DNA of 32,530 bases from Candidatus Angelobacter sp. Gp1-AA117 (GTDB lineage: Bacteria > Acidobacteriota > Terriglobia > Terriglobales > Acidobacteriaceae), in assembly GCA_003223515.1 (NCBI GenBank), contig QHVI01000066.1:1-32530 (forward strand). The letters run 5' to 3'. The notes under the pieces are model-generated. The model saw only the letters and a list, made by a program, of their open reading frames with translations, was not told the DNA's origin and ran no database searches. Shown piece after piece: positions 21,533 through 24,181 of the stretch. Every line of letters begins with the position of its first letter. Within the stretch, counting starts at the first letter, position 1. A program made the position numbers and the translations under genes.

Positions 21533-21700
21533 CTAGTCCTCTGACCGTGTGATTTTTGGATAGCCAGCGAAGCTGGCGGCATTCTTCTAGCCCACAGCGC
21601 AAGCTGTGGGTAGAAAATAAATAAGGAAGCAGAGCTGGCGAAGCCAGCGCCATAGCTGTAATGCACCTCGATTCCTATTTCCATGCGGTCAGAGCGCTAG
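21533..21700. mobile_element. MITE-like element, copy 2 (inverted relative to 6174-6360)
   Basis: Terminal repeats CTAGTCCTCTGACCG (21533-21547) and CGGTCAGAGCGCTAG (21686-21700) match at 14 of 15 positions. The interior is the reverse complement of the first copy, including the GCCAGCGAAGCTGGC and CCCACAGCGCAAGCTGTGGG hairpins, but lacks about 15 bp. The element lies upstream of the ECF sigma gene. Frames through it that encode 60-100 residues (such as MEIGIEVHYSYGAGF) arise only from the repeat and should not be called genes. Confidence 0.75.
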
Positions 21701-21721
21701 TCCTGATTGAGGAACCCAAAG

Positions 21722-21749
21722 AAAAGGCCGCTCTCGCGAGCGGCCTTTT
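21722..21749. terminator. Strong bidirectional intrinsic terminator after the Crp/Fnr gene
   Basis: AAAAGGCCGCTC (21722-21733) and GAGCGGCCTTTT (21738-21749) form a 12-bp stem with the 4-nt loop TCGC. A GC-rich core next to a T-run on both strands is the classic rho-independent layout. It lies 70 bp past the stop of the minus-strand regulator and isolates it from the MITE and sigma gene. Confidence 0.85.
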
Positions 21750-21818
21750 ACGTCGAATTAAAAAGAACATCTGAGTGCCTTCATTCTACTCATTCCCGAT
21801 TACCAAAGCTAAGAGCCT

Positions 21819-22529
21819 TTACACTGCCAACTGTTCCAGCGCTTCCGGCCGTAATACCGTCAGGCTCGATCCTTTTACAGAGATCACTTTTTCGCGTTGA
21901 AATTCCTGGAAGGTGCGGCTCACGCTCTCGCGTGAGGTTCCGGTCATGCCCGCAATCTCTTCATGAGTCAGGGTGACGATCATGCGGTTGGGGTCGGTCA
22001 TGCGTGACTGGGTGCGTGACTTGGTCCACTCCAGCAGCAGGTTGGCGAGCCTTCCAGCAACCGTGCTGGGAAGAGCCAGCCGGCAGACATCATTGAAGAC
22101 CACCTGGTATTCCTGCAATACGCAGCGGGTGGTTTCCATGGCGGCTTCGGGATACTGATGGATGAATGCCGCAAAATCTTTCACGCGGATGGCCTTCACC
22201 TGGCAATTCTCCAGCGCTTCAGCCGTGACTTCATGATCGTTGCTGTTGAGGGCGGCGCTCAGTCCAAGCACATCGCCGGCGTGGGCGATTCTCACGATCA
22301 CGGTCTTGCCCTCCGCCGATGTTACGGAAAGCTTTACCTGTCCGGTACAAATCGCAAAGACGTACTGCGGATGCTGTCCTTCAATAAAAAGGTTCGCGCC
22401 GCGGGAGTAATCCACTTCCATTCCGAGAGCGTTGAAATCCTCAGACGCTTTTCCGGTCAGATTGCTGAAGGCGCGGTTGCTCTGAGAAGGCTTCGTCAAA
22501 GTATCGGTGCGAGGATTGAATGACGGCAT
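21819..22529 (-). CDS. Crp/Fnr-family transcriptional regulator
   Basis: This 236-residue protein has an N-terminal cyclic-nucleotide-binding-type beta-barrel (about 25-125) with GANLFIEGQHPQYVFAICTGQVKLS. A dimer helix (128-150) and a C-terminal winged helix (155-225) follow. The recognition helix reads GTSRESVSRTFQEF, keeping Arg200, Glu201 and Arg205 at the positions that contact DNA in Crp (SRETVGR). The cAMP pocket's GE and Arg-Ser are replaced (AGDVLGLSAAL, NDHEVTAEA) and no Fnr-type N-terminal Cys cluster exists, so its ligand is unknown. The ATG at 22529 is chosen because AAGGAG lies 9 nt upstream; the frame stays open to 22592. It is divergent from an NtrC-type gene, with Crp-like palindromes between. 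Confidence 0.92.
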   Translation of the reverse strand: MPSFNPRTDTLTKPSQSNRAFSNLTGKASEDFNALGMEVDYSRGANLFIEGQHPQYVFAICTGQVKLSVTSAEGKTVIVRIAHAGDVLGLSAALNSNDHEVTAEALENCQVKAIRVKDFAAFIHQYPEAAMETTRCVLQEYQVVFNDVCRLALPSTVAGRLANLLLEWTKSRTQSRMTDPNRMIVTLTHEEIAGMTGTSRESVSRTFQEFQREKVISVKGSSLTVLRPEALEQLAV

Positions 22530-22632
22530 TTTGAAAATCTCCTTGAGGCTTCTGCTGAGTTTCACCAGTCTCAAATGCAAGCCGCCTGCCATTACGTAAC
22601 TCGTTGGTTCTACAAGCCTGTACCATACCGGC

Positions 22633-22702
22633 TGCGCTTAGAACCCATGCTTCTGCGCCCGGTAGCGCAGGAGTAACGCGCAAAACTGCGCGAAATAGCG
22701 CA
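22633..22702. promoter_or_regulatory. Two TGCGC-N6-GCGCA palindromes plus half-sites, candidate Crp/Fnr operators
   Basis: Full 16-bp sites lie at 22654-22669 (spacer CCGGTA) and 22687-22702 (spacer GAAATA), with centres 33 bp apart, about three helical turns. Half-sites TGCGC (22633-22637) and GCGCA (22678-22682) extend the array. The geometry is that of Crp sites (TGTGA-N6-TCACA), and the two G positions read by the Arg-Glu-Arg recognition helix are kept. Site 2 ends 18 bp before the TATAAT of the response regulator promoter. Confidence 0.6.
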
Positions 22703-22720
22703 ATCTCAATCAAATGTCTT

Positions 22721-22726
22721 TATAAT
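22721..22726 (+). promoter_or_regulatory. TATAAT -10 element of the NtrC-type gene
   Basis: A perfect TATAAT lies about 70 bp before the favoured coding start. The matching -35 position (around 22698-22703, GCGCAA) is not a sigma-70 consensus but is the right half of the second palindrome. That fits an activator-dependent or repressor-covered promoter. Transcription would start near 22733. Confidence 0.5.
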
Positions 22727-22795
22727 CAACAGCATAGTGTTGGCAGTGGACGTGCAATTCTGGCCTGTATGGCCTCCACCCAGCCTTTCATCCGC

Positions 22796-24181
22796 ATGCC
22801 ACTCTACGAGGAGAACGTGAGCATCTCGCTGGTCATCATTGACGATAACCCGCGCAGCCTGGAGTTTGTGGCGGCAGCGTTGGCCCGTGATGGCGTACAA
22901 ATCTTTACGGCAACGCACCCGGAAGAGGGACTGGACCTGGTCTACAGCCACCATCCGCAGATTGTGATGACCGACCTGGTCATGCCCTCGATGAGCGGAC
23001 TGGAAGTGCTGGAGAAAGTGATCGAATTCGATCCGGCCACCGATGTTGTCCTGATGACCGCCCACTACACCACCGATACGGCGGTAGAAGCCATTCGCAA
23101 AGGTGCGGCCGACTACCTGAACAAACCTATCTCCCTGGCAGTGCTGCGCGAACGCGTGGGCCGTTTGATTGACACGGCGCTGCAACGCCAGCAGATTGCG
23201 CGGGTGGACGACGCGCTCGTGCAGAAGGCGCAGTTTGAAGGAATTGTGGGCCGCAGCCCGCAGATGTGGGAGATGTTCTCGCGCATACGCAGGATCGCGC
23301 CCCATTACCGTTCGGTGCTGGTGACTGGCGAAACTGGAACAGGCAAAGACTTGGTAGCGCAGGCGCTGCACCGCTCCAGCCCGGTACGGGGAAAATTTGC
23401 AGTGCTGAATTGCTCGGCGGTAGTGGAGACGCTGTTCGAAAGCGAGCTCTTCGGGCACGTGCGCGGCGCTTTTACCGGCGCCGACCGTGACAAGATCGGC
23501 CTCTTCGAGTTTGCTAACGGAGGCACTCTTTTTCTCGATGAGATTGGAGACATGCCTCTGGCCACCCAGGCCAAACTGCTGCGCGTGCTGCAGAACCAGG
23601 AAGTGCAGCGCGTGGGTTCGCTCAGCCCGCAGAAGATCGATGTACGAGTAGTGGCCGCCACCAACAAAGATTTGCGCCATGCCATTGCCGAAGGGAAATT
23701 CCGGGAAGATCTTTATTACCGGCTCTCGATGGTGGAAATTCATGTTCCTCCGCTGGCGGAGCGCATGGAAGACCTGCCGCTGCTGCTGCGGCATTTCATC
23801 GACAAGTTCAGCCGCCAGTATGGAAAAAAGATTCACGGGCTCACGCAGCGCGCCCAGATACTTTTCTCCCGCCACAACTGGCCCGGCAACGTGCGCGAAC
23901 TGGAAAACGCAGTTGGACACGCCTGCATGATGGCCATCGGCGAGATGATCGACGTGGGTGACCTGCCCGAATCATTGCAGCATCTCTCAACGGCGAAACC
24001 TGCCGAAACGGCAGATATCAGCCGCAACGGCAAAGAAACCTTGTCGCTCGAAGAACATGAAAAGTCCCTGCTGGCTGAAGCGCTCACCCAGGCTGGAGGA
24101 AACCAGTCAAAGGCCGCCCGGGCCTTGCGGATAGGAAGGGACGCCCTACGCTATAAAATGAAAAAGTACGGACTGTTGTGA
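22796..24181 (+). CDS. NtrC-family sigma-54-dependent response regulator
   Basis: This protein of about 461 residues contains an N-terminal receiver domain (LVIIDDNPRSLEFV, phospho-acceptor Asp in IVMTDLVMPSMSG, switch residues MTAHYT, and NKP). The AAA+ domain follows, with Walker A GETGTGKD, the sigma-54-contacting loop GAFTGA, Walker B GTLFLDEIGD and the NWPGNVRELENAV sensor segment. The Fis-type HTH is GNQSKAARALRIGRDALRYK. It activates sigma-54 promoters when phosphorylated. No histidine kinase gene is adjacent. The start is uncertain: ATGs at 22769 and 22796 lack ribosome binding sites, while a GTG at 22817 directly follows GAGGAG and would begin VSISLVIIDD, the most family-like N-terminus. 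Confidence 0.92.
   Translation: MPLYEENVSISLVIIDDNPRSLEFVAAALARDGVQIFTATHPEEGLDLVYSHHPQIVMTDLVMPSMSGLEVLEKVIEFDPATDVVLMTAHYTTDTAVEAIRKGAADYLNKPISLAVLRERVGRLIDTALQRQQIARVDDALVQKAQFEGIVGRSPQMWEMFSRIRRIAPHYRSVLVTGETGTGKDLVAQALHRSSPVRGKFAVLNCSAVVETLFESELFGHVRGAFTGADRDKIGLFEFANGGTLFLDEIGDMPLATQAKLLRVLQNQEVQRVGSLSPQKIDVRVVAATNKDLRHAIAEGKFREDLYYRLSMVEIHVPPLAERMEDLPLLLRHFIDKFSRQYGKKIHGLTQRAQILFSRHNWPGNVRELENAVGHACMMAIGEMIDVGDLPESLQHLSTAKPAETADISRNGKETLSLEEHEKSLLAEALTQAGGNQSKAARALRIGRDALRYKMKKYGLL

Follow-up and report, generated by a model that had tools for sequence, protein, structure and literature searches.

Divergent regulator genes and the palindrome array between them

The window, that is, the whole stretch of 32,530 nucleotides analysed here, carries a Crp/Fnr-family regulator gene (hereafter crp) on the reverse strand (21819..22529), whose product has a cNMP-binding domain and a Crp HTH (Pfam PF00027, PF13545 and PF00325), and, divergently on the forward strand, the gene of an NtrC-type response regulator or bacterial enhancer-binding protein (22796..24181; PF00072, PF00158 and PF02954). 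The palindrome array described by the first-pass annotation lies between these two genes, and all of its reported parts were located. Palindrome 1 (TGCGCCCGGTAGCGCA, 22654-22669) and palindrome 2 (TGCGCGAAATAGCGCA, 22687-22702, which reads TGCGCTATTTCGCGCA in the direction of crp) are 16-bp elements without strand and exact matches to TGCGC-N6-GCGCA, with a centre spacing of 33 bp. Two further half-sites, read from the sequence, are an outlying TGCGC on the forward strand (22633-22637) and an extra GCGCA on the reverse strand between both palindromes (22678-22682), so that the entire array spans 70 bp (22633-22702). The core of palindrome 2 fits the family of sites described below, and that of palindrome 1 is without the AT-rich type of this family. 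Two exact palindromes in the window compare with 0.11 expected, and none of 100 shuffles reached two.

The listed crp ORF begins at ATG 22592, and a second ATG at 22529-22527 is preceded by AAGGAG at 22544-22539. Because same-genus relatives (L002-L006, n=5) match the listed ORF only from residue 21-42 onward and AAGGAG lies upstream, the crp start was corrected to ATG 22529, which is most likely the true start as judged from sequence; in more distant relatives the alignment begins at residue 8-42. The apparent first 21 residues of the ORF (22529-22592) are probably promoter and leader DNA, and automatic annotation would place the crp start too early. Hidden beneath the apparent ATG, and overlooked by the first-pass annotation, is a predicted sigma-54 promoter of crp with the -24/-12 signature GG-N10-GC (TGGCAGGCGGCTTGCATT, 22591-22574, reverse strand), which agrees with 12 of the 14 positions of a consensus that we compiled ourselves. 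Transcription of crp is expected to start near 22565. The palindromes begin 78 bp (palindrome 1) and 111 bp (palindrome 2) above the -24 element, and their centres lie at about -96 and about -129 from the predicted start, within the roughly 80-150 bp considered for upstream sites. A distance of 78-111 bp above the -24 element is the usual place of an enhancer for a sigma-54 activator. The genome itself encodes rpoN, with one PF04552 match (E 1.4e-58). Against the NCBIfam CRP equivalog NF008732 the crp product scored 75.6 bits, below the cut-off of 266, and it is not classed as a cAMP-CRP orthologue by this measure. Most Crp/Fnr relatives outside the genus of the window carry an N-terminal CxxC, often with a third Cys (e.g., CLDCPLRGKHAFC); carriers are, for example, L010, L016, L019, L023-L028 and L044-L047, and the motif is absent in the window protein and in L002-L006, which possibly reflects a lost metal or Fe-S site in this genus.

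The NtrC-type protein combines a receiver, an AAA+ domain with GAFTGA and a Fis-type HTH (GRDALRYKMKK), the features looked for in an activator. Its gene start needs correction from TTG 22604, most likely to ATG 22796 or GTG 22817. With 407.9 bits against the NCBIfam ntrC equivalog TIGR01818 (cut-off 558.6) the protein is not classed as NtrC proper, and it remained under the NCBIfam AtoC cut-off as well. The TATAAT noted by the first-pass annotation was found 18 bp past the last half-site (22721-22726, forward strand) and may be the sigma-70 -10 element of this gene, as read from the sequence; TATAAT or TAGAAT stands 17-20 bp past the array in the window, L002, L003 and L004, and neither was found at this distance past the palindrome in L005 and L006. 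A weaker sigma-54-like element toward the NtrC-type gene (TGGCAGTGGACGTGCAA, 22741-22757, forward strand) is suggestive only, and so is the case for its being real in the genus: such an element, 54-55 bp from the palindrome, occurs in four of seven loci, with scores of 8 in L032 and 9 in L031 (both by eye), 9 in L159 and 11 in L033 (identical with L175), and was not found in L034-L036. No Pfam match to a histidine kinase was obtained among the 30 window ORFs of at least 100 aa that were scanned, out of 64 listed. In one genome of genus g34 (G097), the regulator gene has as neighbours a lone receiver and a histidine kinase for which four to five PAS matches were obtained.

Conservation of the array with and without the regulator gene

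Comparative loci were drawn from a family-wide search of 200 genomes with the Crp protein as query (L001-L030) and a search with the regulator (L031-L060), of which L044-L047 add crp loci. The regulator was counted as present when a match reached E 1e-120 or better, which applied to 46 of the 200 genomes. An order-wide search of 397 genomes, 39 of them with a match, added L159 and L164-L174; L160-L163, having no crp in the fetched stretch, stand outside the 30-locus count given below. A separate related-locus search with the Crp protein as query returned no match. The divergent pair falls inside the fetched stretch in L001-L006, L023 and L028; the g34 loci are L010, L016, L019 and L024-L026, with the regulator elsewhere in those genomes. 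Contig edges truncate L011, about 350 bp above the anchor, and L040, 88 bp short of the regulator gene.

Among 34 crp loci, the palindrome TGCG-N8-CGCA lies upstream in 17, all of which have a sigma-54 element directed at crp (scores 9-14), and L044 combines an element of 13 with relaxed sites. The palindrome is absent from up to 450 bp upstream in the remaining 16, and not one of these 16 genomes is among the 46 that bear the regulator. Within a matching 140 bp, a sigma-54 score of at least 9 was reached by 17 of 17 array loci vs none of 16 non-array loci, shuffled controls of the same comparison reaching it in 8.1% and 4.6%. Contrary to this separation, three non-array loci (L014, L029 and L030) have GG-N10-GC elements of 9-10 farther up, at -323 to -400. 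When all crp loci from regulator-bearing genomes were taken together, the window included, a crp-directed GG-N10-GC element of 9-14 out of 14 was present in 30 of 30, with palindromes 67-138 bp above it, strict (TGCG-N8-CGCA) in 23 and relaxed in 7. The relaxed seven all belong to genus g64 and follow TGSGY-N6-RCSCA, five of them at 100 and 79 bp, L171 at 100 and L174 at 79. In the orthologous intergenic regions, where the first-pass annotation had suggested a search for TGCGC-N6-GCGCA, the palindromes are thus conserved at the crp loci of genomes that bear the regulator, and the array is linked to sigma-54 promoters and to the presence of this regulator. Loci of g64 and g9 (L044, L165, L168-L171 and L173) have a site at a constant 99-100 bp above the -24 element and, in most of them, another at 78-79 bp, a spacing of 21 bp, or two helical turns, vs 33 bp in the window.

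Genus g34 separates the two genes. Of the seven genomes in the first sample, six have no crp in the stretch fetched around the regulator: the genes lie on the same contig, 1.4-8.4 kb apart, in four (G195, G033, G097 and G129) and on different contigs in two (G181 and G167, the contig of G167 stopping 88 bp short of the regulator). None of these six genomes has a strict palindrome in front of the regulator gene, and the g34 crp regions retain the array together with the sigma-54 element, a GTGA-N6-TCAC box also being present in five of the six listed (L010 is without). The array therefore serves crp rather than the regulator gene in these genomes, an arrangement that by itself fits either protein as its reader.

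Six of the seven g34 genomes fetched also have, close to the regulator, an OsmC-UspA gene pair preceded by a strict palindrome and a sigma-54 element, Pfam matches having been obtained for one pair. All seven g34 OsmC orthologues have a sigma-54 element of 10-13 at -44 to -47; the strict palindrome accompanies six of them, and the seventh (G181) has TGGGTCATTTCACGCA. None of 11 OsmC paralogues has a sigma-54 element above 8. Two of these paralogues, L133 and L142, carry TGCG-N8-CGCA, by chance or otherwise. The osmC-usp genes could also be targets of Crp, so that the osmC arrays alone do not decide against this protein. Taken as targets, crp and osmC-usp together would point to a stress or redox response.

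Candidate readers of the palindromes

Base counts were made on 27 strict sites chosen by rule. Their commonest bases give TGCGCCATATGGCGCA, with A at position 7 in 26 of the 27. On the side of the proteins, the recognition helix of Crp is of one type, (S/T)RE(T/S)(V/I)(T/S)R, whether or not the locus has the array, and the HTH motif IGRDALRYK is invariant in 18 of 18 regulators (L031-L048). This motif is replaced in the next 12 homologues (L049-L060, 51-57% identical), and in none of these 12 does the strict palindrome occur within 400 bp ahead of the homologue's gene, the stretch examined there; the comparison is weakened by the g34 genomes, in which the DNA before the regulator is mostly without the palindrome too. 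Contrary to the invariance of the motif, DAFRYK stands in its place at the paired locus L164. When named genomes were scanned for DALRYK[MI]K, 80 of 110 relatives were kept, and 24 of these 80 helix-bearing loci contained 37 pairs of a site and a sigma-54 element of at least 10, vs no pair in the same DNA when reversed; the 37 pairs are not independent, several of the 24 loci being genomes already sampled. Two of the 24 extend the array beyond crp and osmC: in L183, from Bryobacterales, two sites lie between reading frames, and in L184 two sites and an 11/14 element precede a PAS protein, both without a Crp match or an OsmC-type target in the locus. The other 56 of the 80 loci have no such pair near the gene, many of their regulators being 60-70% identical, and the helix and a nearby array are therefore not strictly coupled.

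That the palindromes arose by chance in GC-rich DNA, or form a structural element without a cognate protein, might be considered in view of the richness of such DNA in TGCGC and of the 22 exact places in the own genome. This explanation has next to no probability left: among 20,000 dinucleotide shuffles of the intergenic 206 bp (22593-22798), 50 contained at least one exact palindrome and none contained two, and the core and spacing are kept over seven genera, a conservation that already contradicts it. As the binding protein the first-pass annotation had named the Crp/Fnr regulator, which would bind TGCGC-N6-GCGCA with a shifted specificity and control through it both itself and the response regulator. 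The Crp-cAMP operator is TGTGA-N6-TCACA, with which the array sites have both G positions and the N6 between half-sites in common; the 16-bp geometry, an array that precedes crp at every one of the 30 paired loci and persists at crp once the genes separate in g34, and a window crp without a GTGA-N6-TCAC box all speak for Crp. Against it, all 16 crp homologues that share the helix type but come from genomes without an orthologue of the NtrC-type gene lack the palindrome, a canonical GTGA box stands apart from the array in 12 of the 30 paired loci, and the arrays and sigma-54 elements of L183 and L184 stand in loci without a Crp match. Moreover, Crp-type proteins are not known to act as sigma-54 activators. 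Hence, the part of the earlier claim that stands is that the palindromes are conserved and very likely control crp and probably the divergent gene; Crp as the binder is improbable, the array accompanying another protein and being found with sigma-54 promoters outside the crp loci as well.

The best account of these observations is that the TGCGC palindromes are the enhancer (UAS) of the adjacent NtrC-type regulator and drive sigma-54 transcription of the Crp/Fnr gene, a reading that we regard as highly probable on the strength of the sequence comparisons, with a confidence tempered by the many helix-bearing loci without a nearby pair; the missing AT-rich core of palindrome 1 also speaks against it. 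A role for Crp may be added to this reading rather than set against it. With the NtrC-type protein using the array, a Crp box between the array and the sigma-54 promoter would in relatives mediate feedback, as suggested by the GTGA-N6-TCAC box that 12 of 30 loci have at a distance of 27-46 bp above the -24 element (L016 has another). The box is absent in the window and occurs in one of seven loci of its genus (L002), and we give this extension a little less than an even chance as a whole; feedback by Crp in some relatives is likely.

The course proposed below is inferred with respect to phosphorylation, DNA binding, looping and the sense of autoregulation. The phosphorylated NtrC-type protein would bind the palindromes as dimers through its Fis-type HTH, and the bound dimers would build the AAA+ ring; by looping of the DNA, the activator would then open the sigma-54 RNA polymerase waiting at 22591-22574, and the Crp/Fnr gene would be expressed. 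Autocontrol of the NtrC-type gene is probable because the array lies beside the regulator's own promoter in the window, and it might operate by repression of the TATAAT promoter, by activation from the weaker sigma-54 element, or by both.

Relation to known systems and scans for further targets

At glnA, paired NtrC sites lie about three helical turns apart. According to PMC8743547, the E. coli NtrC box is TGCACCAnnnTGGTGCA, and the array sites resemble it in the TGC...GCA ends and the CCA/TGG inner arms. They differ from this box in being 16 bp instead of 17 bp long, with a middle shorter by 1 bp, and in position 4, where the A of the box is replaced by G (TGCGCCAWWTGGCGCA vs TGCACCAnnnTGGTGCA). 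Both systems place a palindrome upstream of a -24/-12 promoter with an NtrC-class reader, which is predicted in our case. Unlike glnA, the target here is a Crp/Fnr gene, plus osmC-usp in a sister genus, and the regulator falls below the NtrC and AtoC cut-offs of NCBIfam. An NtrC-class enhancer with a sigma-54 promoter is already known, and what differs is the variant box and the Crp/Fnr target.

By analogy, the overall pattern is best read as a cascade similar to FixLJ-FixK of rhizobia, in which a two-component response regulator activates a gene of the Crp/Fnr family, as we propose here. Contrary to FixJ, the response regulator here is of the NtrC class, and no kinase match accompanied it in the window ORFs scanned; FixJ is not known to be a sigma-54 activator. 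According to PMC9104804, FixK2 is induced by FixLJ and auto-repressed, so that autoregulation of the Crp/Fnr-family gene would be a further likeness. A more far-reaching version remains tentative and, taken in full, rather unlikely: one enhancer would serve two back-to-back sigma-54 promoters, of crp and of the activator gene, in many relatives Crp/Fnr would feed back at a canonical box inside the loop, and the outcome of a two-component signal would be a stress response through Crp/Fnr and OsmC-UspA that limits itself, in effect an acidobacterial counterpart of the FixLJ-FixK cascade with sigma-54 as its basis.

The literature searched, consulted mostly as listings, contained no description of such an enhancer with a Crp/Fnr target; the items naming Acidobacteria held nothing on the topic, and the site string gave no match. 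The strings TGCG and CGCA are absent from the main text of PMC3333781, which carries little weight as its motif figures lie outside the check, and the consulted part of PMC12316311 is without an Acidobacteri-, crp or OsmC term and names UspA once, in Planctomycetia. For an acidobacterial NtrC-type regulator, the analysis proposes where it binds, which type of promoter it serves and which genes it targets, and the locus offers a ready test case of a two-component sigma-54 system placed above a Crp/Fnr regulator. It also illustrates how a palindrome near a Crp gene may be ascribed to the wrong protein.

The scan of the whole genome for the 16-bp pattern, proposed by the first-pass annotation as a way to a regulon, yielded 22 exact places in 6.48 Mb vs 10 for the backwards pattern, and no second target in the own genome emerged from it. 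Of the other 20 palindromes, 19 lie in stop-free frames of at least 84 aa and one in a frame of 57 aa, a weak sign of coding DNA. Their best sigma-54-like score within 154 bp was 11/14, at one site in a 242-aa frame, and the rest reached at most 9. These 20 palindromes, three matches to TGCG-N8-CGCA plus a sigma-54 element (C123, C148 and C37) and seven candidates with an AT-rich core were considered as further targets in the own genome and none was convincing. Nine AT-core matches fetched from sister genomes had a best nearby sigma-54 score of 10 (L153). A pattern scan of 18 genomes gave 65 matches vs 20 for the backwards control at gaps of 50-80 and 49 vs 19 at gaps of 81-111, so that about a third of the matches are attributable to chance; those examined were the matches at crp and osmC, those of the own genome and those on three contigs of sister species.

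These three contigs (L098-L100; G134:C62, G106:C26 and G170:C4) match TGGC-N8-TGC and have no sigma-54 element of at least 10 nearby. They share, in three species of the genus, a recurring stretch with TGCGC...CACGCA, TTCTGACACAC and GATAATA, which in L100 lies directly past a short reading frame of receiver-like appearance. By eye, several short inverted repeats (e.g., CCCACAGCGCAAGCTGTGGG) are recognisable at 21560-21750 of the window, together with a strong hairpin resembling a terminator (AAAAGGCCGCTCTCGCGAGCGGCCTTTT) past the crp gene.
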